Of a DNA stretch of 56,412 bases, positions 26,288 to 41,707 are shown in pieces (the first letter of the stretch is position 1; each line of letters begins with the position of its first letter). The position numbers were made by a program, and so were the translations under genes. The notes under the pieces were generated by a model. The model saw only the letters and a program-made list of their open reading frames with translations, was not told where the DNA came from and did no database searches. Source of the DNA: an uncultured Clostridia bacterium (lineage in GTDB: Bacteria > Bacillota > Clostridia > Oscillospirales > Ruminococcaceae); assembly GCA_947629905.1 (NCBI GenBank), contig CANRFM010000013.1, positions 1-56,412 on the forward strand. The letters are read 5' to 3'.

Positions 26288-26331
26288 AATAGTAACAAAC
26301 TATTGACAAATCAAACAAAATGGTGTATAAT
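26288..26331 (+). promoter_or_regulatory. Promoter with overlapping inverted repeat, secreted dockerin protein
   Basis: TTGACA (26303-26308), 17 bases, TATAAT (26326-26331). A 6-5-6 inverted repeat AATAGT AACAA ACTATT (26288-26304) overlaps the first two bases of the -35, so it could be a repressor or activator site. The gap 26140-26287 is otherwise AT-rich without genes. Confidence 0.75.
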
Positions 26332-26386
26332 TACTATGTTGCTTCCCGAAAATAACACAAAAAACACGAAATTTAGGAGGAGAGCT

Positions 26387-28096
26387 ATGAAACAACACAG
26401 GAAATGTATGCTGCCGGTGATGGCAGCAGCGCTGGCATTCTGCGCACCGCTGTCTGTGATGTCTGTCAGCGCCGCAAATAAGGATATGGTCTATTCTGCT
26501 GCTTCCGGTCTGGATCTCACAGAAGACGGGTATGCCTATGCGGACGGAGATGCTGTATCGGGGAAATTTGGTGTAGACCCGGATCTGCCGATCGGCGATA
26601 TAGATGACACAGGGGACATTTCTGTTCAGGATGCGAGCCTGATCCTGAACGTTGCTGCTTACCATATGATGGGTATGGACGATCAGGAAATGTGGCAGGA
26701 ACTTCTGCCGGATAGTCAGGCAGATACGGCATATCTCAATACAGTCGCTGATGTAAACGGGGACGGCGAGATCAATGTCGAGGATGCTTCCGTCATTCTG
26801 GGGTATGCATCCAGACAGATGTTTGGCGGAGATCTGCATCCGCTTGGATTTTCCCTTTATTATGCAGATGCAGACGGCAAGCTAAAGACCGGCTTCATTG
26901 AAGCAGACGAAAATACCTACTATGCCGGAGAGGATCACAAGCTGCTTACCGGCTGGAATATAATCGATCAGAACTGGTACTACTTCAATGAAGAAGCAGA
27001 ATTGCAGAAAGAATGCTGGATCACTTCCGGAAGCAGTCGGTATTATGTGGACATTCAGGGCATCCGGCTGACGGGTTGGCAGACCATTGACGGAGATACG
27101 TATTACCTTGGCACAAACGGTGCGAAAAAGACCGGACTGACCGAGGTGGACGGTGATACATACTGGCTGGGGACGGATGGTGTTCTGACAACGGGATGGC
27201 AGGATATTGACGGGACAACGCACTATTTCTATCCGGAAAATGGCTGCATGGCAACCGGCTGGCAGTTTATTGACGATGCGGAGTATTATTTTGATGCCGA
27301 TGGCAATATGGCTTCCGGCTGGCAGGATCTGGACAACGGGCGCTATTATTTCACAGAGGACGGCAGTTTAGCAACGGACTGGCAGGTCATTGACGGTGAA
27401 ACGTATTACTTTGATGAATATGGCAATATGGCAACTGGCTGGCTGTTCATCGGCGATGAGGAGTATTATTTCACAGAGGACGGCTGCATGGTAACGGGCA
27501 GCCTGACAATGGACGGCGTGACCTATGAATTTGATGCAAACGGCGTGCTGATCAGCACCTATATCGAGGAAGAGGAGGACAGTGAGGTAGAGGGAGATAT
27601 TGCCTCTCTGCTCAATAACGCACAGCTCTCCCCCAGACGGCAGATCACGGTCTACAACCGTCAGGTTGATCCGGTGACGATCGACTTCACGATCAAGCTG
27701 TCCGATAAGGATATTGCCATCATCGAACAGTTCGCCGCAGAGCATTTTGATGCGGACGACACACTTGCGGAAAAGCTTTACAAGACACACCAGTGGATTC
27801 ACTACAATGTCGATTATGCCTATGCCGGAGAAAAGTGGAATGAGATCGTCAACCTCTCCTACGTAGATGCGATCTTCAACCACAAGAAAGGACAGTGCGT
27901 ACAGTACAATGGTGCCATGGCTTCCGTGCTGGCATATTATGGGTTTGATGTGTACATGGTACGTGGCTGGACAAGTCCCGGCACACAGCACTTCTGGACG
28001 GAGGTCAACCTCAATGGCAAGACCTACATGGTCGAGTGCGGTAACTCCGGTAAAAACGGCGACTGGTGGCAGTATTTCTTTAGTGAAATTGAGTAA
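26387..28096 (+). CDS. Secreted protein: dockerin, cell-wall-binding repeats, transglutaminase-like domain
   Basis: 569 residues. Order: signal peptide (~1-31, KHR start and VSA-A cut); a type I dockerin-like module (~60-150) with two calcium loops, DIDDTGDISVQD and DVNGDGEINVED; about eight cell-wall-binding repeats of the GWxxIDGxxYYFxxDG type (~155-400); a short linker; and a C-terminal transglutaminase/protease-like domain with KKGQCVQYNGAMASVL (Cys) and TQHFWTEV (His). The usual Asp after the His strand reads MVECGN, so activity is uncertain. It is likely displayed on the wall or docked to a cohesin scaffold. ATG 26387 follows AGGAGGAG; a hairpin at 28115-28162 ends the unit. Target unknown; a peptide-processing or crosslinking role is inference. 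Confidence 0.92.
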   Translation: MKQHRKCMLPVMAAALAFCAPLSVMSVSAANKDMVYSAASGLDLTEDGYAYADGDAVSGKFGVDPDLPIGDIDDTGDISVQDASLILNVAAYHMMGMDDQEMWQELLPDSQADTAYLNTVADVNGDGEINVEDASVILGYASRQMFGGDLHPLGFSLYYADADGKLKTGFIEADENTYYAGEDHKLLTGWNIIDQNWYYFNEEAELQKECWITSGSSRYYVDIQGIRLTGWQTIDGDTYYLGTNGAKKTGLTEVDGDTYWLGTDGVLTTGWQDIDGTTHYFYPENGCMATGWQFIDDAEYYFDADGNMASGWQDLDNGRYYFTEDGSLATDWQVIDGETYYFDEYGNMATGWLFIGDEEYYFTEDGCMVTGSLTMDGVTYEFDANGVLISTYIEEEEDSEVEGDIASLLNNAQLSPRRQITVYNRQVDPVTIDFTIKLSDKDIAIIEQFAAEHFDADDTLAEKLYKTHQWIHYNVDYAYAGEKWNEIVNLSYVDAIFNHKKGQCVQYNGAMASVLAYYGFDVYMVRGWTSPGTQHFWTEVNLNGKTYMVECGNSGKNGDWWQYFFSEIE

Positions 28097-31874: not shown

Positions 31875-31903
31875 TTGACTTTTTCGGGCAGGTACTGTAT
31901 AAT
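31875..31903 (+). promoter_or_regulatory. Promoter of the transglutaminase/RiPP-like operon
   Basis: TTGACT (31875-31880), 17 bases, TATAAT (31898-31903). No other promoter was recognised before 39666, so all seven genes downstream may share it. Confidence 0.8.
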
Positions 31904-31955
31904 TAAGGTACATCACCCAGAAAAGGGCAGACACAGGAAAGGAAGGATGACATTT

Positions 31956-34900
31956 ATGAAATTCAGAAAAGCACTTGCCTCTCTGCTTGCCGTCTCGCTT
32001 GCAGCCACACAGCTCACAGCCGGATTTGCCATGCAGACGGTCAACATCGTACAGACCTTTGCTGCCGATACCGCAGCCGTGCAGGACACGGAAGGGTATT
32101 TCTGTCAGCAGCTCTCTGACGAGTCCAAGGTCTTTTACGATGCTATCCACACCATGTACACCACGGGAATGCTTAAGACCGGCACGGAAAGTTTCGACCT
32201 GACCGCCAACGGTCTGCTCACACAGGAAGAAGCTGCCGCATACGCTGACGGCGGTCCCGGTGTGCTGACGGCATTCGGTGCAGCAAGGGATGCCTTTTAC
32301 ATGGATCACATGGACACGTTCTATGTGGATTTCTCTGCACTCTCCATCCGTGTGACGACCGGTGAGGACGGCTATCATGTGTATTTAGGCGCATTCAGGC
32401 GGGATAATTACTATGCAGAGGGCTTCACCAGTGCAGCGGATGTCGAAAGCGCTCTCGGACAGTATCAGGAAGCCGTTGCGGAAATTGCCGCTGCTGCCAA
32501 AGCTGCTCCCGTGGAGGAGGGCAAAAATGCCGCAGCCGAACAGGTGCGCTATGTGCATGACTATATCACCCACCACACTTCCTATCGGTTAGAGGATGCC
32601 TGCAATCCTGCCAATATCGGCTTTATCCGGAATGCCTACGGTCCTCTGCTCCGGGAAGAGGGTGTCTGCGAAGGCTACTCCCGTGCCTTTAAGGCAGTAC
32701 TGGACGAGCTGGGCATTCCCTGCGTTCTCGTCAGTGGTGTCTACAACGTGACGGAAAATCATCCGGAACTGCATATGTGGACACTCGTGCAGATCGACGG
32801 CGGCTGGTACGGCGTTGACCCGACCATGGACGACCCGATCACCCAAAACCCCTCGGAAGGCGGCGTGGACGGCGGGGAGAACGAGGAATATTTCCTTGTC
32901 GGTGAGGACATTCTGAACCGTCACCACACCCCGAGCAATATCCTCTCGGAAGCCAATTATCCTTTCACCTACCCGAACCCGGAGATCAATGCACTCGGCG
33001 TGGAAACCCTCACCGATGCCGGCGGGCTTGTGGTGAAGTATAAGGCAGACTCCGAAATGGAAGGCGTTCCGGCAGGCGATTTCATCGTCAGCTACAATGG
33101 CATGGGCTACGCCAAAACTGCCGAACAGGGCAAGTACATCATCGTCCGCTTCATCAACTACTATGAAGAAAATGATGAGACCGTTGACAGCGGCTGGTGC
33201 TACATCGAACCGCAATACTACCCCGGCATAGAGGACACGGACACCGAACTGACACTGACACTTGCCTCGGCGCAGAATGTGCAGTTTGCTGTCACGGATA
33301 TTCCGCCGACAATGAATGAATACGGCATCCCGGATCTTGTCTTTGACGAAGAACCGGTCATGCTCGAACAGAGCAATGTGATCCACAACGAAAACGGCTA
33401 CTATATGCCCGCTCCCTATGCAAGAAACCTCACGCCCCGGAACAGCGGCTACCTTATTATCGAACGGGGCACACAGCACGTGAGTGCCACCTTTGACGAA
33501 GTCCTCGTTCCCATTGAGGGGGAGGAATTTGAGGTCGTCATGACGTGCAGCTCCCCGTCCGGTCAGGTCAACAGCACCATGACAAAGGCGCAGTGGGACG
33601 GCGTTTCGACCATTTCCTTCGACTTCACGCCAAGCAAAATGTGGGCTGACGACCGTGCAGCGTACACGTTCTCTGTCAAGGGGCTCAAGAGCGCCCGCAG
33701 CGGCAAAGCTCCCATGGACATCACCTATGAAGCCAAGTTCCAGAGCTATGTCTGCGCTTACCGTTCGCAGGGCATCCAGTGGAATGTCTTTGCACAGCCG
33801 AGACTGCTTGACAATTCCGATATTTCCATGAACGACTGGAAAACCACCGATGGTTCTACCGTGAGCAACAAGCTCCGTGACCGCATGGTGCTTGTGGCAA
33901 GCGCTCCGTCCCACAAGGAACAGGATCAGATGACAGAACTGGTCGACACCCAGACAAATGACACCGTTCTCGAAAGCAAGAGCTTTGAGATCAGCCTGTC
34001 CATCTGCAAGGCGCAGGTGGCAAGCACCGGTGACGGCGTGCGTGTGATGCTCGGTTTCCCGGACGGTTACGGTCCGGAAGATGCCGGGGTGACGTTCAAG
34101 GTCTACCACTTCATCAAGGATGCCGCAGGCAACTGCACCGGGGTCGAGGAGATCCCCTGTGTCATCACCGAATATGGTCTGGTCGTGACCTGCATGAGCT
34201 TCAGCCCGTACATGGTCGCAGCCGTCGAGGATGACGGCACGGAAAGCGCTGCCAAGTCTGTCGTAGCATCTGCCTCCAAGGGCGGTTCTGTCTCCTGTGA
34301 CGGTATCGTTACCCTTGCCGAGGGAGAGAGCGTGACCATGTTCCTCCAGCCGGACGAGGGCTATGTCCTTGATTCCGTTTCCGTTGGCGGCAAGCTGACA
34401 GAGATCACGGATGCATCCGGTATGCCGCTGACACTGAGCTATGCGGATATTGACGGAAACAGCAGTATCGTGGATGTGAAATTTGCTCCTGCTGCTGTCG
34501 CAGAAGCAGAAGCTGCCAAGGGTGAAACGCCCGTTCCGGTCGATGCCGAGGCAGAAGCTGCCCCTGCCGGCAATCTGGTAACAGCGCCCGACAAGCCCGG
34601 CGAGACCACACCACCTGCCACAGAACCCGTGGAAACCACCACAGAAGCACCTGCCACGACTACTGCTGAAACGACCCTTCCCGAAACCACAGCCGTTGTA
34701 ACAACTTCTTCTACGGCTGCAACGACCACCACAGCGACGACAACAACTACCGCTGCAACGACAACGACTACCGCAGCGACGACAACGACTACTGCAGCGA
34801 CAACAACGACCACCGCAACGACAACAACTACCGCAGCGACAACAACGACTACCGCAGCGACGACAACAACAACTGCGCCGACCACCACGCCCTCTGTGGA

Positions 34901-35279
34901 AACCATTCCCGGCACACCCGGCAAGACGGCATCCAAAGTCCTGCTCCCGCCGGAAGATGGTCTGACAGATATGTACCTGCTCTATGCAGTCGATTCGCTG
35001 AATTACAGCCGTGCAGGGCTGACGATCGCAGCAGACGGCAAGACCTATGTATGGGATACCAATACGGTTTATCAGTCTGTGATCATTGATGGCAAGACCT
35101 ACACAGCGGAAGAATTTGGCGGCAAGTATCTGCTGGCGCTCGGCGTGACGGGTATTCCCGCAGATGCTGCTAAGACTGCCGCAGCTATCCCAAGGCTGAC
35201 AGAACTGAAACAAGAAACAGCCGAACTGCCGAAAAAAGCATACAGGCTGCCTGAGGCACAGAAGGAGGAGATCGTATGA
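31956..35279 (+). CDS. Large secreted transglutaminase-like protein with Thr-rich linker
   Basis: 1107 residues. A signal peptide (~1-38) is followed by a transglutaminase/protease-like domain (~175-290) with EEGVCEGYSRAFKAVLDELG (Cys), HMWTLVQIDGGWYGVDPTMD (His and Asp), so the triad is complete. Then come several beta-rich domains (~340-820), an acidic stretch, a long Thr-rich linker (~895-985, mostly TTTTTAA units) and an unusual C-terminal domain (~990-1107) with DGLTDMYLLYAVDSLNYSRA. There is no dockerin or LPXTG. Its stop overlaps the ATG of the 47-residue peptide gene (ATGA), linking it to the RiPP-like cluster. SD AAAGGAAGG favours ATG 31956 over 31947. Role is unknown; surface display or peptide processing is inference. 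Confidence 0.9.
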   Translation: MKFRKALASLLAVSLAATQLTAGFAMQTVNIVQTFAADTAAVQDTEGYFCQQLSDESKVFYDAIHTMYTTGMLKTGTESFDLTANGLLTQEEAAAYADGGPGVLTAFGAARDAFYMDHMDTFYVDFSALSIRVTTGEDGYHVYLGAFRRDNYYAEGFTSAADVESALGQYQEAVAEIAAAAKAAPVEEGKNAAAEQVRYVHDYITHHTSYRLEDACNPANIGFIRNAYGPLLREEGVCEGYSRAFKAVLDELGIPCVLVSGVYNVTENHPELHMWTLVQIDGGWYGVDPTMDDPITQNPSEGGVDGGENEEYFLVGEDILNRHHTPSNILSEANYPFTYPNPEINALGVETLTDAGGLVVKYKADSEMEGVPAGDFIVSYNGMGYAKTAEQGKYIIVRFINYYEENDETVDSGWCYIEPQYYPGIEDTDTELTLTLASAQNVQFAVTDIPPTMNEYGIPDLVFDEEPVMLEQSNVIHNENGYYMPAPYARNLTPRNSGYLIIERGTQHVSATFDEVLVPIEGEEFEVVMTCSSPSGQVNSTMTKAQWDGVSTISFDFTPSKMWADDRAAYTFSVKGLKSARSGKAPMDITYEAKFQSYVCAYRSQGIQWNVFAQPRLLDNSDISMNDWKTTDGSTVSNKLRDRMVLVASAPSHKEQDQMTELVDTQTNDTVLESKSFEISLSICKAQVASTGDGVRVMLGFPDGYGPEDAGVTFKVYHFIKDAAGNCTGVEEIPCVITEYGLVVTCMSFSPYMVAAVEDDGTESAAKSVVASASKGGSVSCDGIVTLAEGESVTMFLQPDEGYVLDSVSVGGKLTEITDASGMPLTLSYADIDGNSSIVDVKFAPAAVAEAEAAKGETPVPVDAEAEAAPAGNLVTAPDKPGETTPPATEPVETTTEAPATTTAETTLPETTAVVTTSSTAATTTTATTTTTAATTTTTAATTTTTAATTTTTATTTTTAATTTTTAATTTTTAPTTTPSVETIPGTPGKTASKVLLPPEDGLTDMYLLYAVDSLNYSRAGLTIAADGKTYVWDTNTVYQSVIIDGKTYTAEEFGGKYLLALGVTGIPADAAKTAAAIPRLTELKQETAELPKKAYRLPEAQKEEIV
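34718..34890 (+). repeat. Minisatellite coding a poly-Thr/Ala linker
   Basis: Repeating ACGACAACGACTACCGCAGC-like units encode TTTTTAA blocks. Similar Thr-coding tracts occur at about 39950-40030 and 40190-40290 on the minus strand. Such linkers are often O-glycosylated in Ruminococcus surface proteins (family knowledge) and can vary in length by slippage. Confidence 0.75.
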
Positions 35280-35419
35280 CAAAAGAACCCTATATCACGC
35301 CGATCATGGAGGTCTGCACATTTGACACGGAAGATGTCATCACCACCAGCGGTGAGCTGATCAACGGCGGCACAGAAGGCACACCGGAAACGGTTGCCTA
35401 TACGGACGTATTCCAATAA
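35276..35419 (+). CDS. 47-residue lasso-like RiPP precursor peptide
   Basis: Small ORF starting ATG 35276 with a strong GAAGGAGGAG site; its ATGA overlaps the stop of the large secreted protein. The leader (residues 1-25) contains Y6-I-T-P9-I-M11-E-V, which fits the YxxPxL motif that PqqD-like B1 proteins recognise in lasso precursors. T24 sits two residues before G26, as the conserved Thr(-2) does in lasso peptides. The putative core G26 to Q47 (22 residues: GELINGGTE, then GTPETVAYTDVFQ) has Gly1 and Glu9, the spacing of a 9-residue lasso ring. No Cys lies in the core. It is followed by kinase, PqqD, peptidase-like, ABC and nucleotidyltransferase genes. The ring is inference; no cyclase is present in the window. 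Confidence 0.72.
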   Translation: MTKEPYITPIMEVCTFDTEDVITTSGELINGGTEGTPETVAYTDVFQ

Positions 35420-35479
35420 GCGGCGTGCTGCCCCTTGCGCCTGTGGTGCAGGGGGCAGCATTTCCGGAAAGGAGCTGCT

Positions 35480-36232
35480 ATGTACGGTATCTATCGCATA
35501 GCCGAAAATAACATTGGCATCCGGTCACTGTTTCCGGATGTTCATGCACTCTGCCGGGATTACCGGACAGATGCACAGCCGGAAATTTTCATAGAGGTCT
35601 CCCCTGCTGATATTGCTGCCGAACGGGAACAGTCTGCCCTGACGGACAAGCGAGAGGGCAAGCCTGTGCGGGCATTTCCGGACGGGTATCTGGAGACGTT
35701 GGCAGTCTACCGGAAAATAGCTGAAACGCTCATCCCCTCGGATATTCTGCTGTTTCACGGGTCTGCCGTGGCAGTGGACGGAGAGGGCTATCTGTTCACG
35801 GCAAAAAGCGGCACAGGAAAATCGACCCACACCAGCCTGTGGATGACGTATTTCGGGGAGCGGGCTTTCATGGTCAATGATGATAAGCCGCTCCTGCGCT
35901 GCACGGATGGCGGTGTGATCGTTTACGGTACGCCGTGGGACGGGAAACATCACCGCAGCACGAACACCTCTGTTCCGCTGAAAGCGGTCTGCGTTTTGGA
36001 ACGGGGCAAGGAAAACCGGATCACACCCCTTGACCGGCACGAAGCATTTCCGCTGCTGTTACAGCAGAGTTACCGCCCTTCTGATCCGGCGCTGCTGCAA
36101 CGTACACTGGCTCTGGTGTCCCGGCTTTCTGCCGGAGTAAAGCTGTACCGCCTGCAATGCAACATGGAACTGTCGGCGGCAAAGATCGCCTATGCGGGCA
36201 TGAAAGGAGAAACCCATGCAACTGAAACCTGA
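35480..36232 (+). CDS. HPr-kinase-like RiPP-associated kinase
   Basis: 250 residues. The C-terminal two thirds have the HprK fold: ILLFHGSAVAVDGEGYLFTA, P-loop AKSGTGKSTHT (~residues 113-123), MVNDDKPLLR (the acidic DD of the kinase site) and VIVYGTPWDGKHHRS. In lasso clusters of the paeninodin type, such kinases phosphorylate a C-terminal residue of the peptide. Here the predicted C-terminus is Gln, with Thr and Tyr nearby as possible targets (inference). ATG 35480 follows AAAGGAG. It overlaps the PqqD gene by 17 bases. Confidence 0.88.
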   Translation: MYGIYRIAENNIGIRSLFPDVHALCRDYRTDAQPEIFIEVSPADIAAEREQSALTDKREGKPVRAFPDGYLETLAVYRKIAETLIPSDILLFHGSAVAVDGEGYLFTAKSGTGKSTHTSLWMTYFGERAFMVNDDKPLLRCTDGGVIVYGTPWDGKHHRSTNTSVPLKAVCVLERGKENRITPLDRHEAFPLLLQQSYRPSDPALLQRTLALVSRLSAGVKLYRLQCNMELSAAKIAYAGMKGETHATET

Positions 36233-36473
36233 ATTTCTGACCTACGAAGCAGACGGCGAACAGATCTTAGTCGCCGCCGGAACGGCTTTCAGCGGCATTG
36301 TACGCAGCAATCCGACGGCTGCTTTCATTGTCAACTGCCTGAAAACGGAAACGACCGAAGCGGAGATCACCGCCCGGCTGCTGGAACGATACGATGTCCC
36401 CGAAGCTACTGCTGCCGCAGATGTCCACCGTATCGTGGAGACCCTGCGCAGCATTGATGCAATTCATGGCTGA
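36216..36473 (+). CDS. PqqD-family peptide recognition protein
   Basis: 85 residues. Wing-helix RRE of the PqqD type: a short beta hairpin (QLKPEFLTYEADGEQILVAA), then AFIVNCLKTETTEAEITARL and the final helix ADVHRIVETLRSIDAI. These proteins bind the leader of RiPP precursors and hand the peptide to modifying enzymes. ATG 36216 follows GAAAGGAGAAACCC and overlaps the kinase gene; its stop overlaps the next start. In lasso clusters it corresponds to the free B1 protein. A B2 peptidase partner is missing next to it. Confidence 0.9.
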   Translation: MQLKPEFLTYEADGEQILVAAGTAFSGIVRSNPTAAFIVNCLKTETTEAEITARLLERYDVPEATAAADVHRIVETLRSIDAIHG

Positions 36474-36897
36474 GTCCAGCTTTGAAGCGGAACTGGCACG
36501 GACGGGGAAACTGGTCTACACGAATGTCGGTGACAGCATGATGCCTCTCATCCGGGAAAAGCGTGACCTGCTGATCCTCGAACCGCCGCAAGGCAGGCTG
36601 CACCGGCTGGATATTCCCCTCTACAAGCGGGATTCCGGTCAGTATGTGCTGCACCGTGTCCTGAAAGTACGGAAGACGGACTATATACTCTGCGGCGACA
36701 ACCGCTGGCAGCGGGAGACCGGTATCACGGATGAACATATCATCGGTGTGCTGACTGGCTTGGTGCGGGACGGAAAGACCCTTTCCGTGAAAGACTGGCG
36801 GCTGCGGCTGTATGCCCATATCTGGTGTGATTTCTTCTGGGTGCGGGCTTGCGTGCTGCGGGTAAAGCATTTCCGGAAAGGGCGGTGGAAACGGTGA
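36466..36897 (+). CDS. S24/S26 peptidase-like protein
   Basis: 143 residues. VGDSMMPLIREKRDLLILEP is the signal-peptidase/LexA catalytic Ser region (GxSMxP), and QYVLHRVLKV and YILCGDNRWQRETGITDEHI match the other conserved boxes. A Lys that could act as the base lies at LYKRDSG. No membrane anchor is seen, unlike true signal peptidases. Such proteins accompany PqqD, kinase and nucleotidyltransferase genes in clostridial peptide clusters and might trim the leader or process the product (inference). The start is uncertain (36457 or 36466), because it overlaps the PqqD stop and no clean ribosome site is seen. Confidence 0.82.
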   Translation: MAESSFEAELARTGKLVYTNVGDSMMPLIREKRDLLILEPPQGRLHRLDIPLYKRDSGQYVLHRVLKVRKTDYILCGDNRWQRETGITDEHIIGVLTGLVRDGKTLSVKDWRLRLYAHIWCDFFWVRACVLRVKHFRKGRWKR

Positions 36898-38612
36898 AAC
36901 AAACGGCTGTCCGGTGGCTCTGGCAGGTCACGGGAAAGCGGAAAGCTGCCATTGCATGGCTGACGGTGCTGCAAATGATACTCGGTGTGAGCGGTGTTGC
37001 CTTTGCGCTGGCACTGCGGGATGTCATCGATGCGGCAGCGAATGGAGACCGCAAGGGCTTCGGGTACGGGCTTATGGGGGCGGCAGGTATTGTAGCCGGG
37101 CAGATCCTTTTGCGAACCGTGCTCCGGCACTGGGAGGAACGCACCCGTGCGGATATGGAAAACGCCTGCAAGCGCCGGCTATTTGGGGTGCTGCTGCACA
37201 AGGACTATGCCTCGGTGACGGCTGTTCACTCCGGTGAATGGCTCAACCGCCTGACCTCGGACACGGCAGTCTGTGCAGCGGGGGCTGTGGATATTCTGCC
37301 GGGGGCAGCAGGCATGGCGGTAAAACTGTTAGCAGCGCTTTCGATGATGCTTGTCCTCGAACCGGGGTTTGTGTATCTGCTTCTGCCGGGCGGAGCAGTA
37401 TTGCTGCTGCTGACCTGCCTGTTCCGGAAAACCCTCAAAGCCCTGCACAAACAGATGCAGACGGCGGACGGAAAAGTGCGTATGTTTTTGCAGGAACACC
37501 TCGAAAGCCTGCTGATCGTCCGTTCTTTCTCCGCAGAACAGCGGACACTTGCGGGCGCAGAGGAACGCATGGCTGCGCACAAATCTGCCCGGATGGCTCG
37601 TGTCCGGTTCTCCAACCTGTGCAATTCCGGTTTTTCTGCAGCCATGAATGGTATGTATCTGCTGGGGCTGGGGTACTGCGGGTACGGTATCCTACAGGGG
37701 AAATATTCCTACGGTACGCTGATGGCAGTGTTACAGCTCATTGGGCAGCTCCAGATGCCGCTGGCGGGCATTACGGGCTTTCTCCCGAAATTCTATGCCA
37801 TGACAGCAAGTGCCGAACGGCTGTCCGAAGCGGAAGCTTTTGCGGAGGACTGCCCGGAGGGAGCGAAAAGCGGTGACGACATCCGGGCATTCTATGAAAA
37901 CGAATTTGCCGGGCTTGGCTTTGCGGGCGCAAGTTTTGCCTACCGGAGCAGAGAGGGAGAACGGGTGCTCGAAAATATATCCGTCACCCTGAAAAAAGGC
38001 TCATTCACGGCGATCACAGGGCATTCCGGGTGCGGTAAATCGACACTTCTGAAACTGCTCATGTGCCTGTACCCGCTGCAAAGCGGGGAGCGTTTTCTCA
38101 TCGGCAGGGACGGCACACGCCTGCCTCTGACGGCGCAGTGGCACAGGCTGTTCGCCTATGTGCCGCAGGGCAGTCAGCTCCTGAGTGGCTCGATCGGGGA
38201 TGCTGTAAGCTTCTCGGAGAAATCCCCGGATGCGGAGCGCCTTGCAAGGGCGCTGCACATCGCCTGTGCCGATTTTGCGGAAACGCTTGGCACGGAAACA
38301 CAGCTTGGCGAACGGGGGCAGGGGCTTTCAGAAGGGCAGCTGCAGCGGCTTGCCATTGCACGGGCGATCTATTCGGACAACCCAGTTCTGCTGCTCGACG
38401 AATCGACGAGCGCCCTTGACGGCGAAACGGAACAGCGCCTGCTGTGCAATTTGCGGCAGCTCACGGATAAGACGGTCATCCTTGTCACGCACCGCCCGGC
38501 GGCACTGGACATCTGTGATACTATCATTCATATGCACGAAAACGGAGTGGAGGTCAATTATGCAGACACAGGAAGCCCTGCTGTACCTGACAGCGTGCGG
38601 CATACAGAATAA
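36894..38612 (+). CDS. ABC transporter, fused permease and ATPase
   Basis: 572 residues. Six-helix membrane domain (~15-310) followed by an ATPase domain (~345-560) with Walker A GHSGCGKST, Q-loop YVPQGSQLLSGSI, signature LSEGQLQRLAIARA, Walker B VLLLDESTSALD and switch VTHR. It works as a homodimer exporter. No C39 peptidase domain is attached, as in many lasso (D-type) exporters. The GTG start at 36894 overlaps the peptidase-like stop by 4 bases. Probable exporter of the modified peptide, possibly providing immunity (inference). Confidence 0.93.
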   Translation: MKQTAVRWLWQVTGKRKAAIAWLTVLQMILGVSGVAFALALRDVIDAAANGDRKGFGYGLMGAAGIVAGQILLRTVLRHWEERTRADMENACKRRLFGVLLHKDYASVTAVHSGEWLNRLTSDTAVCAAGAVDILPGAAGMAVKLLAALSMMLVLEPGFVYLLLPGGAVLLLLTCLFRKTLKALHKQMQTADGKVRMFLQEHLESLLIVRSFSAEQRTLAGAEERMAAHKSARMARVRFSNLCNSGFSAAMNGMYLLGLGYCGYGILQGKYSYGTLMAVLQLIGQLQMPLAGITGFLPKFYAMTASAERLSEAEAFAEDCPEGAKSGDDIRAFYENEFAGLGFAGASFAYRSREGERVLENISVTLKKGSFTAITGHSGCGKSTLLKLLMCLYPLQSGERFLIGRDGTRLPLTAQWHRLFAYVPQGSQLLSGSIGDAVSFSEKSPDAERLARALHIACADFAETLGTETQLGERGQGLSEGQLQRLAIARAIYSDNPVLLLDESTSALDGETEQRLLCNLRQLTDKTVILVTHRPAALDICDTIIHMHENGVEVNYADTGSPAVPDSVRHTE

Positions 38613-39666
38613 AGCCCCCGACAAGGCAAAGCTTGCCGGGACGGATATGCAGGCACTGCTGCAGGTGAGTCGGTTTCACAGCCTGTCCGCACTGGTCTGC
38701 ACGGCACTGGAAGCTTCCGGGGCGGCGATGCCGGATGATTTCCGGCAGGACAAGGCAAAGGCGATCCGCAAGAATCTCCTCTTGGATGCGGAGCGCAGCC
38801 GGATATGCAGCTTTCTGGAAGAACATGGTATCTGGTATATGCCCCTCAAGGGGGTCATCCTCAAGGAACTGTACCCCGGTGTCGGTCTGCGGCAGATGGC
38901 AGATAATGACATTCTCTTCGATGCGGCATTTCAGCGGGAGGTGCTTGCCTTCATGCAAGCCTCCGGTTACACCCCTGAAAGCGTTGGAAAATGCCATCAT
39001 GACACCTACCTGAAAGAACCGATCTACAATTTCGAGCTGCACACGATGCTGTTCGATCAGAAAAGCGAATTTTACAGCTACTATGCAGACGTGAAAGAAA
39101 GGCTTGTGCAGGATGCGGGGAAAGCCTACAGCTATCATTTTACGGATGAGGATTTTTTCATCTTTTTTCTGGCTCATGCGTATAAACACGCCAGCGCTGC
39201 CGGAACCGGGCTGCGGACGCTGCTTGACTGCTATGTATTCTTGAAAGCGCACCCTGACCTTGACCGGGCATATCTCGAACGGGAGCTGACAACGCTTGGC
39301 ATTGCGGATTTTGCTAAAAAAATGGGAACGCTTGCCTGTCAGGTCTTTACCGACCCGGAAGCACCCCTGACGGAAGAACAGCAGACACAGCTGCACTTCT
39401 ATCTGCATTCCGGCACGTATGGCACAGTGGAACAATCCGTCCGGAACCGCATGGAAACACTCGGCACGGGGTGGAAATACTACTGGAAACGTCTGTTTCC
39501 GGATCTTGCCTTTTATAAAGTATATTACCCGTTTTGCTATCGTCACAAGCTTCTGATCCCTGCGGCGTGGCTGCACCGGCTGCTCCGGGGGATCACGTTC
39601 CGCCGCAAAAAAGTCCTCATGGAACTGAAAGTACTGCACCGGCAGGACAAACAAAAAAGAGCCTGA
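38560..39666 (+). CDS. RiPP-cluster nucleotidyltransferase family protein
   Basis: 368 residues. LEEHGIWYMPLKGVILKELY and GLRQMADNDILFD carry the motif KGxxL..lY....R.m.D.Dll of the nucleotidyltransferase family (PF14907-like) that is common in lasso and related peptide clusters; the two acidic residues expected for metal binding are present (D-N-D). HAYKHASAAGTGLRTLLDCY is the matching second box. Starts at ATG 38560 with GGAGTGGAGG, 53 bases inside the ABC gene. It may adenylylate or otherwise nucleotidylate the peptide or a partner (inference). It is the last gene of the operon. Confidence 0.9.
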   Translation: MQTQEALLYLTACGIQNKAPDKAKLAGTDMQALLQVSRFHSLSALVCTALEASGAAMPDDFRQDKAKAIRKNLLLDAERSRICSFLEEHGIWYMPLKGVILKELYPGVGLRQMADNDILFDAAFQREVLAFMQASGYTPESVGKCHHDTYLKEPIYNFELHTMLFDQKSEFYSYYADVKERLVQDAGKAYSYHFTDEDFFIFFLAHAYKHASAAGTGLRTLLDCYVFLKAHPDLDRAYLERELTTLGIADFAKKMGTLACQVFTDPEAPLTEEQQTQLHFYLHSGTYGTVEQSVRNRMETLGTGWKYYWKRLFPDLAFYKVYYPFCYRHKLLIPAAWLHRLLRGITFRRKKVLMELKVLHRQDKQKRA

Positions 39667-39688
39667 GATATTTCACTCAGGCTCTTTT
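39655..39688. terminator. Bidirectional terminator closing the RiPP-like operon
   Basis: AAAAGAGCCTGAG, 8-base loop, CTCAGGCTCTTTT. Perfect 13-pair stem between convergent genes. Confidence 0.9.
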
Positions 39689-39691
39689 CAT

Positions 39692-41707
39692 TCAGCTCAC
39701 TGCTTGCGGGGTAACGATCGCTGCTGCTTGCTGGCTGGCGATCAGCATATATTTGAGCACCGCAAGGTCAAATACATCGATCACACCATCCTTGACCAGA
39801 TCGCACTTTGCAGCATCCTCACCGGAGAGTTTAACTGCACCGGTAAGATAACGGTTCAATGTCACCAGATCGGTCAGTGTTATGCCCTGATCCCCATTGA
39901 GATCACCCGGAACAGCCGGTGGTGTTGTCTCTGCTTCTGTAGCAGGTGCTTCTGTTGCCGTGGTCGTTGTTGTGGTAGTAGTTGTTGTCGTTGTGGTTGT
40001 GGTCGTAGTTGTTGTCGTGGTTGTCGTTTCTGTGACAGTAGTCACAACAGCAGCCGTCGTGGTGGTAGCTGCCGGCGCTGTAGAAGTGCTCTCCGGGAAA
40101 GATTCATCCGGAATCGCACGTGCATCGACCGGCGGTTCTGTTGCCGGAAGTGTGATCACCTGTGCAGTTTCTTCCGGTGCAGCGGTTGTTGCAGGGGCAT
40201 TTGTTGTTGTCTCTGCAAGAGTCGTTGCAGCCGTTGTCGTCGTAGTTTCCGGGAGCGTTGTTGTCGTTGCAGCCGTTGTCTGTACAGGAATAATACCCGT
40301 GCTGACAGGTCCTGCGACTGCTTCGATCTGTGCTTCATACTCGGCAAGCGGTACGGCAAATTCGGTCACAGCACCCGTAGAGGTGGCAGAAATGTCATAG
40401 TACAGCATACCGTCCTTGACATACATACCATAGATGCAGCCGATCTGTTTCTGCTCCTCGGTGAGGTTGAACAGCCAGATGATGATACCGTTGCGCAGTG
40501 CGAACACCGTGGTCGGTGTGGAGTAGTAGACCGTTCCCTCATAGGCAGAAGGCACAATAAATGTGGACGAATAATACTTGTTCGCCATTCCGACTACTGT
40601 CCAGCGCTCATTCAGGGAGAACAGCGACTGACTTTCTGAAAGTCCCGTAGCAGGGTCAAATGTGTACACATTGAACCAGCCTGTCGTCTTGTCATACTCA
40701 CCGGGCACAACTGCCAGCCATTTGCCCTGATAGGGCTGCACGGCTGCGTTGCTCTCTGTCCAGAAAGCATTGTTGTACAGCGAAGAAACCTGCAAAGTAG
40801 ATTCCGGCTTGCCGGTGCTGAGCGTCCAGTCATCCGAATTATGTCCGGTTTCCGTCATTGCATTGCGGTCTTTCAGGAAATTCTTGTGAACCACAAGCCC
40901 GGCATGATTCTGATAGGAGTCATCCCACGTGATGTCCACATGATACCATGCATCCCCGATCTGTACCACATTCCATGCGTGTGCTTTTTTCAGGCTCGTC
41001 ACCATCAGAGAATCGATACCCTCCCGGCGGAGCAGCAGATTGTACAGCCATGCATAGGCATCGCACACGCCTTTGCCACGGCTGAGCATACCGTAGGCAG
41101 TGTGGCAGAGATACTCCTCGTCTTTGGTCTCATACGAAGATGCACCGTTGTCATAATTGTAATGAACGGCAATGTATTCATGGAGATAGAGTGCTTTTTC
41201 TGCCGGTGACCAGTTATCCTGCACACCTGCGGAAATGGCATCGAGCTTGTCAATGGTGTCCGCATAGGCAGCATCAAATTCTTCCGGCTCGACCAGATAG
41301 TACAGCATCATGCCACGGACGAAGTTGCCACGTGTGACACTCGTGGTCAGGAGCATATTGGTGGAATTTCGCACGGAAAGCACACCAACATCCCACCCGG
41401 CTGTGATCGTGGAATAGACATTCATGATCGACTGGAAAGCATCCGCATCCGGACGGATGAGCGAATCATCCGAACTGGTGTCAAACTCGGCAGTCTCGGC
41501 GTGTTCCGCCAGACCCTTGTAAATGCTTGCAGCTACCATCTGTGTCTGTTCCTCTGTCAGCGTACCGATCGCACCCAGCTCGGAGAAATCCGGAATGACC
41601 AGCTGCTCCTCATCCGCAGCAACAGGAAACATGGCAAGCTGCATCAGCCCGACTGCACCAGCGGCGGCGGCAGCGATCACCTTTCTTAAACGATTACTAT
41701 GCAGCAT
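39692..41707 (-). CDS. Secreted transglutaminase-like protein with C-terminal dockerin
   Basis: 671 residues. Signal peptide (~1-31); helical region; transglutaminase-like domain (~165-260) with RGKGVCDAYAWLYNLLLRRE (Cys) and HAWNVVQIGDAWYHVDITWD (His, Asp), triad complete; a beta-propeller-like or repeated beta region (~290-460); two Thr-rich linkers (~470-600); and a C-terminal type I dockerin (~607-660) with calcium loops DLNGDQGITLTD and DLVKDGVIDVFD. It is probably docked to a cohesin on the cell surface or a scaffold. Its catalytic domain is related in kind to that of the protein at 31956. ATG 41707 follows AAAGGGGG. The promoter is at 41770-41798. Substrate unknown. Confidence 0.93.
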   Translation of the reverse strand: MLHSNRLRKVIAAAAAGAVGLMQLAMFPVAADEEQLVIPDFSELGAIGTLTEEQTQMVAASIYKGLAEHAETAEFDTSSDDSLIRPDADAFQSIMNVYSTITAGWDVGVLSVRNSTNMLLTTSVTRGNFVRGMMLYYLVEPEEFDAAYADTIDKLDAISAGVQDNWSPAEKALYLHEYIAVHYNYDNGASSYETKDEEYLCHTAYGMLSRGKGVCDAYAWLYNLLLRREGIDSLMVTSLKKAHAWNVVQIGDAWYHVDITWDDSYQNHAGLVVHKNFLKDRNAMTETGHNSDDWTLSTGKPESTLQVSSLYNNAFWTESNAAVQPYQGKWLAVVPGEYDKTTGWFNVYTFDPATGLSESQSLFSLNERWTVVGMANKYYSSTFIVPSAYEGTVYYSTPTTVFALRNGIIIWLFNLTEEQKQIGCIYGMYVKDGMLYYDISATSTGAVTEFAVPLAEYEAQIEAVAGPVSTGIIPVQTTAATTTTLPETTTTTAATTLAETTTNAPATTAAPEETAQVITLPATEPPVDARAIPDESFPESTSTAPAATTTTAAVVTTVTETTTTTTTTTTTTTTTTTTTTTTTATEAPATEAETTPPAVPGDLNGDQGITLTDLVTLNRYLTGAVKLSGEDAAKCDLVKDGVIDVFDLAVLKYMLIASQQAAAIVTPQAVS

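Follow-up and report, generated by a model that had tools for sequence, protein, structure and literature searches.

A leader-bearing peptide gene in a clostridial cluster resembling those of linear polyphosphorylated peptides, and a possible match between its tail and a secreted partner protein

We analysed a stretch of 56,412 nucleotides from an uncultured Ruminococcaceae bacterium (contig CANRFM010000013.1; the window, below), in which a 47-residue peptide is encoded at 35276..35419 on the forward strand. The peptide gene belongs to a series of seven same-strand genes that encode, in order, a transglutaminase-like secreted protein, the peptide, an HprK-like kinase, a PqqD-like recognition element (RRE) for ribosomally synthesized and post-translationally modified peptides (RiPPs), a signal-peptidase-like protein, an ABC exporter and an NTP_transf_5 nucleotidyltransferase. 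Names in brackets follow the lpp cluster of linear polyphosphorylated peptides (LPPs) described by Popov et al. (Nat Commun 2026, PMC13381572). The large first protein (31947..35279, start codon inferred) has a Transglut_core domain (1.3e-11), a Thr-rich linker and a C-terminal domain (34887..35276), and its signal-peptide-like start marks it as secreted. The kinase (LppK-like; 35480..36232) matched TIGR04249 at 9.4e-6, under the cut-off of that model, and its structure model, with a predicted local distance difference test score (pLDDT) of 94.3, matched PEPCK (best 2.6e-8) and HPr kinase (2.8e-5) in Foldseek. The PqqD-like gene (LppB-like; 36216..36473; PF05402, 9e-16) is the sole PqqD match in the genome. 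The putative leader peptidase, of SipW/archaeal signal-peptidase type (LppS-like; 36466..36897; TIGR02228, 8.2e-4, also under its cut-off), carries Ser24, His63 and Asp78, which are kept in all 63 aligned sequences (the window and 62 loci). The exporter (LppD-like; 36894..38612, GTG start inferred; ABC_membrane 7.3e-25, ABC_tran 3.2e-25) and the nucleotidyltransferase (LppN-like; 38560..39666; PF14907, 1.7e-42) complete the series. PDB sequence searches returned nothing useful for the kinase, peptidase, RRE or nucleotidyltransferase, RRE-TfuB1 appearing at E 0.29 only.

The peptide frame (LppA-like) has 47 codons plus a stop and translates as MTKEPYITPIMEVCTFDTEDVITTSGELINGGTEGTPETVAYTDVFQ. 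AGAAGGAGGAG precedes its start, a strong ribosome site lies upstream, and the start codon overlaps, within ATGA, the stop codon of the 1134-codon frame before it. A first-pass annotation of this DNA had picked out this 144-base open reading frame (ORF), and its coordinates, ribosome site and overlap proved exact, as did the residues it named (Y6, P9, M11, T24, S25, G26 and E34). Relatives occur in other genomes of the genus, the top five at 85, 61, 59, 53 and 62% identity (genomes G007, G033, G009, G013 and G001, respectively), and a profile built on 27 members gave matches (E 0.01) in 75 of 295 genomes searched within the order, so the ORF is more than a chance frame. A loose ribosome-site rule was passed by 78 of 91 collected members and by 745 of 5000 random 18-mers. 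We conclude that the 47-residue ORF is a real gene of a large conserved family. Since Pfam gave no match for the peptide, and NCBIfam none for it or for five relatives tested, routine annotation could well miss it, as had been foreseen.

The peptide looks like a leader-bearing RiPP precursor. Its conserved leader region, through Ser25, spans 35276..35350. Among 88 distinct peptides D20 is kept in 88, S25 in 87 (never Thr), I22 in 85, Y6 in 84, F16 in 81, E19 in 75 and P9 in 62; the set includes the window's peptide and was gathered, unthinned, from fetched loci with a leader profile, which favours the conserved positions. Beyond Ser25 lies a variable tail, GELINGGTEGTPETVAYTDVFQ (35351..35416), that tail comparison placed in a group we call class D, with the pattern GG..P...[YF].[DE][LV]F. 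The first-pass annotation had also pointed to a RiPP-precursor-like peptide beside HprK-like, PqqD-like and nucleotidyltransferase genes, and the loci of relatives do show these genes. A scan of named genomes revealed at least 552 encoded kinase relatives, of which 80 loci were kept. The number of these loci with each component was 65 for PqqD, 62 for the peptidase, 45 for the exporter, 42 for the peptide (counted at E 0.05 anywhere in a locus) and 41 for the nucleotidyltransferase, some loci being cut by contig ends. Across the 295 genomes, kinase profile matches (E 1e-6) occurred in 86; 67 genomes had peptide and kinase, 8 the peptide alone, 19 the kinase alone and 201 neither (Fisher 2e-39, a value that ignores phylogeny and uses two genome lists copied by hand). 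This type of machinery is present in many clostridial genomes, those of strains of Coprococcus catus and Ruminococcus flavefaciens included, with at least the kinase and peptides in Faecalibacterium prausnitzii. From these sequence data we consider it probable that a dedicated set of genes serves to phosphorylate the peptide, trim it and export it.

The closest described system is the lpp cluster, with the published operon order lppA-K-B-S-D-N. There, LppK phosphorylates the core Ser3 multiply, S3T and S3Y not being phosphorylated; LppS (Ser29, His68, Asp93), aided by the RRE, removes the leader; and cleavage lies two residues before the conserved, phosphorylated Ser (PMC13381572). Because the LPP Ser is phosphorylated and the cut precedes it by two residues, Ser25 (35348..35350) is by analogy more likely to be the phospho-acceptor than the residue at -1. 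The same cleavage rule makes it probable that the first-pass annotation was wrong to start the core at Gly26 with Thr at -2. The genes, the peptidase residues and the near-invariant Ser match those of LPPs, whereas the published leader motifs FETxxS and Px9Fx[T/A] do not, and the window cluster is thus very probably an LPP-type system, a clostridial variant with a different leader.

We then considered what lies beside the peptide genes. Six of the 88 peptides stood at locus edges, leaving 82, and 59 of these lie -4 to 213 bases 3' of an ORF of at least 400 residues. A signal-peptide-like start was present in 56 of the 59 upstream ORFs by a loose, home-made rule. Among peptide neighbours, though not among control pairs, this rule also accepts ORFs truncated at a locus edge, and the upstream ORFs of loci L056 and L032 were counted twice, each being followed by two peptides. 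As a control, 784 consecutive same-strand gene pairs from the same loci had 276 upstream genes of at least 400 residues, 149 of which also passed the rule (Fisher 1.4e-10 for length, 1.2e-19 for length with a signal-peptide-like start). Pfam searches on eight large proteins revealed diverse N-terminal parts (Transglut_core twice, Glug, PKD, CAP and DUF4838; one without a match), and the C-terminal regions of the partners fall into a few classes with some singletons. Class A has 17 members; class C has 5, from two genomes only, with tails mostly ending GDIxI. By alignment, the C-terminal domain of the window's partner is of class D. Of 37 genus genomes, the 6 with strong matches to this domain are also the 6 with class-D peptides, domain and peptide lying on different contigs in G009 (61 genomes were searched for the domain, and weak matches in G006 and G062 were left out of the count). 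Two further transglutaminase-like proteins are encoded in the window. One (39692-41707, reverse strand, convergent with the operon) has a signal-peptide-like start and a dockerin domain; the other (26303-28096, forward strand) has choline-binding repeats, a sub-cut-off dockerin-like stretch and Transglut_core.

Similarity between peptide tails was correlated with similarity between the C-terminal regions of their partners. For 51 non-redundant pairs the Mantel r was 0.46, and 0.34 once leader and N-terminal similarity had been removed; in neither case did any of 5000 permutations reach the observed value. Three non-partner upstream ORFs (L158, L053 and L145) had been dropped before the test, and the set had been reduced from 56 to 54 to 51 by removing repeats and near-duplicates, the window's own pair being discarded as nearly identical to that of L051. 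When each genome and class was limited to one pair (47 pairs; genome assignments entered by hand, each locus from L119 to L198 taken as its own genome) r was 0.45, again with 0 of 5000 permutations as high, and the partial r was 0.31. Among 1023 pairs with unrelated N-termini r was 0.28 (0 of 5000).

Similar tails were also found outside the peptide genes. The class-A domain has matches in 23 of the 295 genomes and in 4 of 6 genomes of one genus. Of 51 class-A rows, 9 had the domain internally, 33 ended at the domain, and 9 (8 distinct tails) continued into a C-terminal extension of 17-20 residues, a tail in cis. A peptide gene followed none of the 8 distinct cis-tailed proteins and 20 of the 33 that ended at the domain (Fisher p 0.003), in a table counted by hand, without the 9 internal-domain rows, to which the peptides of L204 and L215 were added by eye, that of L215 possibly being a lasso-type precursor. 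Compared with class-A free tails of other genera, the extensions had a mean score of 26.4 (19.7 in shuffles, 0 of 1000 as high), a far closer resemblance than to tails of other classes (19.9 vs 18.7, 11 of 1000). The motif [DN]E[TSL][EDP][IF] was absent from all 24 tails of other classes, the shuffle expectation being 0.2-0.7% per tail. Genome G223 has both forms, a cis tail with the sequence SQASITLDEDESEIIPW and a free peptide whose end is SIVEDEDETGILPW.

A third setting for tail-like ends is a lipoprotein-like stalk. At L190, in R. flavefaciens ND2009, a peptide ending NIDENEWA is encoded by the gene next after a lipoprotein-like ORF of 124 residues, which has a Thr-rich stalk and the terminus NLDENEWA. 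The pattern ELP[FI][IVL]P was present within the last 14 residues of 16 ORFs among the 6332 in the loci that have at least 80 residues (L058 and L142 being the same region). Fifteen of the 16 adjoin a peptide gene on the same strand and the sixteenth (L119) abuts a kinase ORF; 15 of the 16 passed an ad hoc rule for stalks, which asks for a hydrophobic segment at the N-terminus and a low-complexity chain after it. At L039 (2510-2968 of the reverse strand, positions on that strand) a lipoprotein-like stalk, an LPP-like leader and an ELPIIP tail stand in one frame, with a ribosome-site-like sequence inside the frame, before the peptide start.

Evidence for modification of the tails came from a branch of the family with radical SAM proteins. 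A radical SAM/SPASM protein lies by the peptide in 8 of the 80 kinase loci (L133, L141, L145, L152, L160, L170, L190 and L193), and four of these that were scanned had as best match TIGR04463, a RiPP maturase model, below its cut-off. Cys was present in 9 of 9 tails at radical SAM loci vs 1 of 78 elsewhere, which is good evidence that tails in the peptide family are substrates of modification. The radical SAM protein would supply one more modification within the same leader and cassette. A radical-SAM RiPP was rejected for the window itself, as no such gene is among its cassette genes.

Computation established the gene order, conservation, tail-domain covariation and resemblance of cis and trans tails; phosphorylation, cleavage, export and physical docking are inferred, as follows. 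By homology, the PqqD-like RRE would bind the YxxP leader, the HprK-like kinase would phosphorylate the near-invariant Ser25, whose phosphate the nucleotidyltransferase may extend, the SipW-like peptidase would cut near the DVITTS boundary and the ABC exporter would send the tail out. The tail would serve for recognition and would match the C-terminal domain of the large secreted protein whose gene lies directly upstream. A similar tail would be displayed on the exported peptide, fused to the C-terminus of domain proteins, or carried at the tip of a membrane-anchor-like stalk protein. On the simplest reading, docking would keep secreted proteins on the cell surface or mark them there, the modified peptide being ligand, anchor or competitor of the stalk. 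We give an even chance to the overall reading, in which the peptide is a linear RiPP precursor of a clostridial lpp variant and its tail is matched to the C-terminal domain of the upstream secreted protein in a docking system. The docking function as such, that the tail docks on or marks its secreted partner, here the transglutaminase-like protein, is a more tentative suggestion from sequence. Held a shade more loosely still is the full scheme of modular surface docking, with a phosphorylated (perhaps phosphoglycosylated) exported peptide, a tail code also used in cis and on stalks, and several matched classes.

Several observations weigh against the overall reading. Covariation can arise from co-inheritance, and the tails also correlate with partner N-termini (r 0.30-0.31) and with leaders (r 0.22-0.23), more weakly, with no permutation as high. 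Among the 82 peptides, 23 have no upstream ORF of 400 residues, and 3 of the 59 upstream ORFs are not secreted partners (a nucleotidyltransferase, an ABC-F and a radical SAM protein). Every cis tail comes from one genus, and the class-A motif occurs in only 10 of 36 class-A free tails and 4 of 8 cis tails. Of the 33 class-A proteins ending at the domain, 13 have neither a detected peptide gene nor a cis tail, one of them being the protein at L201, on contig 25 of the window's own genome. Foldseek with the class-A domain model found no solved relative (best E 0.7), and a PDB sequence search with this domain gave nothing useful. The stalk pattern was picked after the first examples had been seen, local lipobox ORFs compared with their own peptides gave a combined p of 0.007 over 26 candidates (3 of 26 below 0.05), and the rule that finds 15 of the 16 stalks found none in the window or in five other class-D loci. 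Finally, the published LPP leader motif Px9Fx[T/A] is absent from the window's leader.

An LPP-type linear phosphopeptide with an activity of its own, as a signal or antimicrobial, would show the same cassette as lpp. If its genes travelled and duplicated jointly with their neighbours, tails would track those neighbours, as the correlations with N-termini and leaders suggest, and tail variability is likewise familiar from toxins and pheromones. Yet the covariation survives regression on leader and N-terminal similarity and persists in the 1023 pairs with unrelated N-termini, similar tails are fused in cis and on stalk proteins, and G009 has both the class-D peptide and the class-D domain although they lie on different contigs; we regard this explanation as rather unlikely, at about one chance in four. 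The position of the tails at extreme C-termini in all three contexts, like that of sorting signals, would suit a tag for sorting or processing that some third component, such as a protease, transpeptidase or receptor, reads, with no binding of the C-terminal domain. Such a tag does not readily explain why tail class follows domain class or why peptide genes are missing after cis-tailed proteins, and when the neighbour genes of the 80 kinase loci were clustered, no recurrent component of this kind appeared, so that we think it improbable. Still less probable is an unmodified small protein, for example a chaperone or inhibitor of the secreted partner, with the cassette acting elsewhere. Some peptide-partner pairs do lie apart from any cassette, as on contig 38 of G013 (L054), and 8 of the 75 peptide genomes lack a kinase match. 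Against this, G013 carries a cassette on another contig (L047), the co-occurrence at genome level is strong (67 of 75), and the Cys distribution at radical SAM loci speaks for tail modification.

The first-pass annotation had read the peptide as a lasso-like or lasso-derived RiPP precursor with a 22-residue core from Gly26. Its RiPP character stands and its lasso character does not. The YxxP leader, Thr24 and Gly26 invite the comparison, and a kinase, RRE, transporter and nucleotidyltransferase are common to paeninodin-type clusters. A YxxP/WxxP leader with a discrete RRE gene is indeed found here (Y6 and P9 are largely kept, and the PqqD-like gene is present), but this combination is not diagnostic of lasso peptides because it is common to LPPs. 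The residues on which a lasso core would depend are poorly kept among the 88 peptides: Thr24 in 57, Gly26 in 30 and Glu34 in 10, residue 34 alone having been counted for the ring acid at core positions 7-9 (not 32 or 33). The annotation itself had taken loss of the first Gly or the Glu at core position 9 as contradicting it, and such loss is what the counts show. The lasso B2 protease family PF13471 had no match in the window's genome (G000; 89.65% complete), and none of the 7 Asn_synthase (PF00733) matches there, the family of the lasso cyclase, is on the window's contig (contig 13). One Asn_synthase ORF of G009 has its end ~2.6 kb upstream of the peptide, from which an ABC-F-like gene separates it, and the other five class-D genomes have no Asn_synthase on the peptide's contig. 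We therefore rejected a lasso peptide as a candidate and put its remaining probability as very slight. Elsewhere, at L215 (reverse strand), directly after a class-A domain ORF, a peptide beginning MEKKIYHTPCLEEVILLTEQAMGPSFPELPDHDW... is more lasso-precursor-like than the window's.

Further features of the operon concern its expression. A promoter-like site, TTGACT-17-TATAAT (31875..31903, forward strand), matches the consensus at 11 of 12 positions before the transglutaminase-like gene; it rests on consensus matching, which found 9 sites vs a shuffle mean of 4.3. A terminator-like hairpin (39654..39689) lies between the operon and the convergent gene at 39692-41707; it was scored on the reverse strand alone, with 18 such sites vs a shuffle mean of 7.0. 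Between peptide and kinase, a strong RNA hairpin without a U tract (35421..35466, forward strand) folds at -38.5 kcal/mol (z -5.4). Hairpins at this place in three relatives gave z -4.3 (L051), -5.5 (L055) and, weaker, -2.1 (L052), those of L055 and L052 having sequences unlike the window's. As a stable hairpin separates peptide from kinase, partner and peptide may be produced in excess over the cassette enzymes. At L168 (9164-9922) four precursor genes lie inside 0.8 kb upstream of the kinase. In Kandleria vitulina (L125, 6492-6839) the tail that follows the leader is exceptionally long, at ~95 residues with much Tyr, Asn and Gly.

What is new here is that tails covary with the C-terminal domain of the upstream secreted protein, that tails occur in cis in one genus, and that stalk proteins have related ends. 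Beside the neighbouring secreted proteins, the variable tails no longer look random. The biological role of LPPs is stated as unknown in PMC13381572, and the link to a secreted partner offers a testable idea of that role. If correct, it would give the LPP family its first function, reveal a new way of holding or marking proteins on the surface of Gram-positive gut bacteria, and provide a source of short matched peptide-domain pairs. In the main text of PMC13381572 the words 'clostrid', 'ruminococc', 'secreted' and 'surface' were not found. The strings EDVITTS, EDIITTS, DVITTSG, ELPFVPV, ELPFIPV, ELPFVPA and ELPIIPV were not found in published text, and a literature search joining RiPPs and surface proteins gave nothing relevant, most subscription papers lying outside both searches.

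Compared with LPPs (PMC13381572), the window has the same gene order, from the precursor through HprK-like kinase, discrete RRE, SipW-like peptidase and exporter to the NTP transferase, and the whole core set of SpI-like peptidase, RRE, kinase, NTP transferase and MsbA-like exporter. Both lack a macrolactam cyclase and B2 protease (for the window, no PF13471 genome-wide and no PF00733 on the contig), and both have YxxP leaders in precursors with a conserved N-terminus, a variable C-terminus and a conserved Ser near the boundary. The peptidases share catalytic Ser and His at a spacing of 39 (S29/H68 in LppS); the Ser-Asp spacing is 54 in the window vs 64 in LppS, so that D93 may correspond to Asp78 or to another Asp. 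The conserved Ser follows the Tyr by 19 residues here vs 18 in LPPs. The leader differs, YxxPxM..F..EDVITTS vs the published YxxPxVLxHQxIxFETxxS, with EDV replacing FET. The window cluster is also preceded by a secreted transglutaminase-like gene, and whereas published lpp clusters often lie inside capsular polysaccharide loci, only one family 2 glycosyltransferase, ~28 kb off, was found among the window's Pfam-tested ORFs. Furthermore, the tails follow a secreted protein encoded beside them and, at other loci, stalk proteins, a relation that the examined sections of PMC13381572 do not describe. Phosphorylated lasso peptides of paeninodin type and pseudomycoidin (PMC8498205) likewise have an HprK-like kinase, PqqD-like B1, nucleotidyltransferase and exporter, but the window has neither cyclase C nor B2, and Thr at -2, Gly at 1 and the ring acid are not conserved. 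The SynChlorMet cassette (NCBIfam ScmC/ScmD) also brings HprK-like and PqqD-like proteins together; the window's matches to it are far under the cut-offs (25.2 of 125 bits and 12.3 of 100), and no radical SAM gene is among the six cassette genes. In cohesin-dockerin pairs and donor-strand docking, a short element is recognised by a domain of a secreted protein, which is an analogy of function alone. In contrast to these systems, the putative docking element here is also found on a peptide that bears a leader and is accompanied by a modification cassette of its own.

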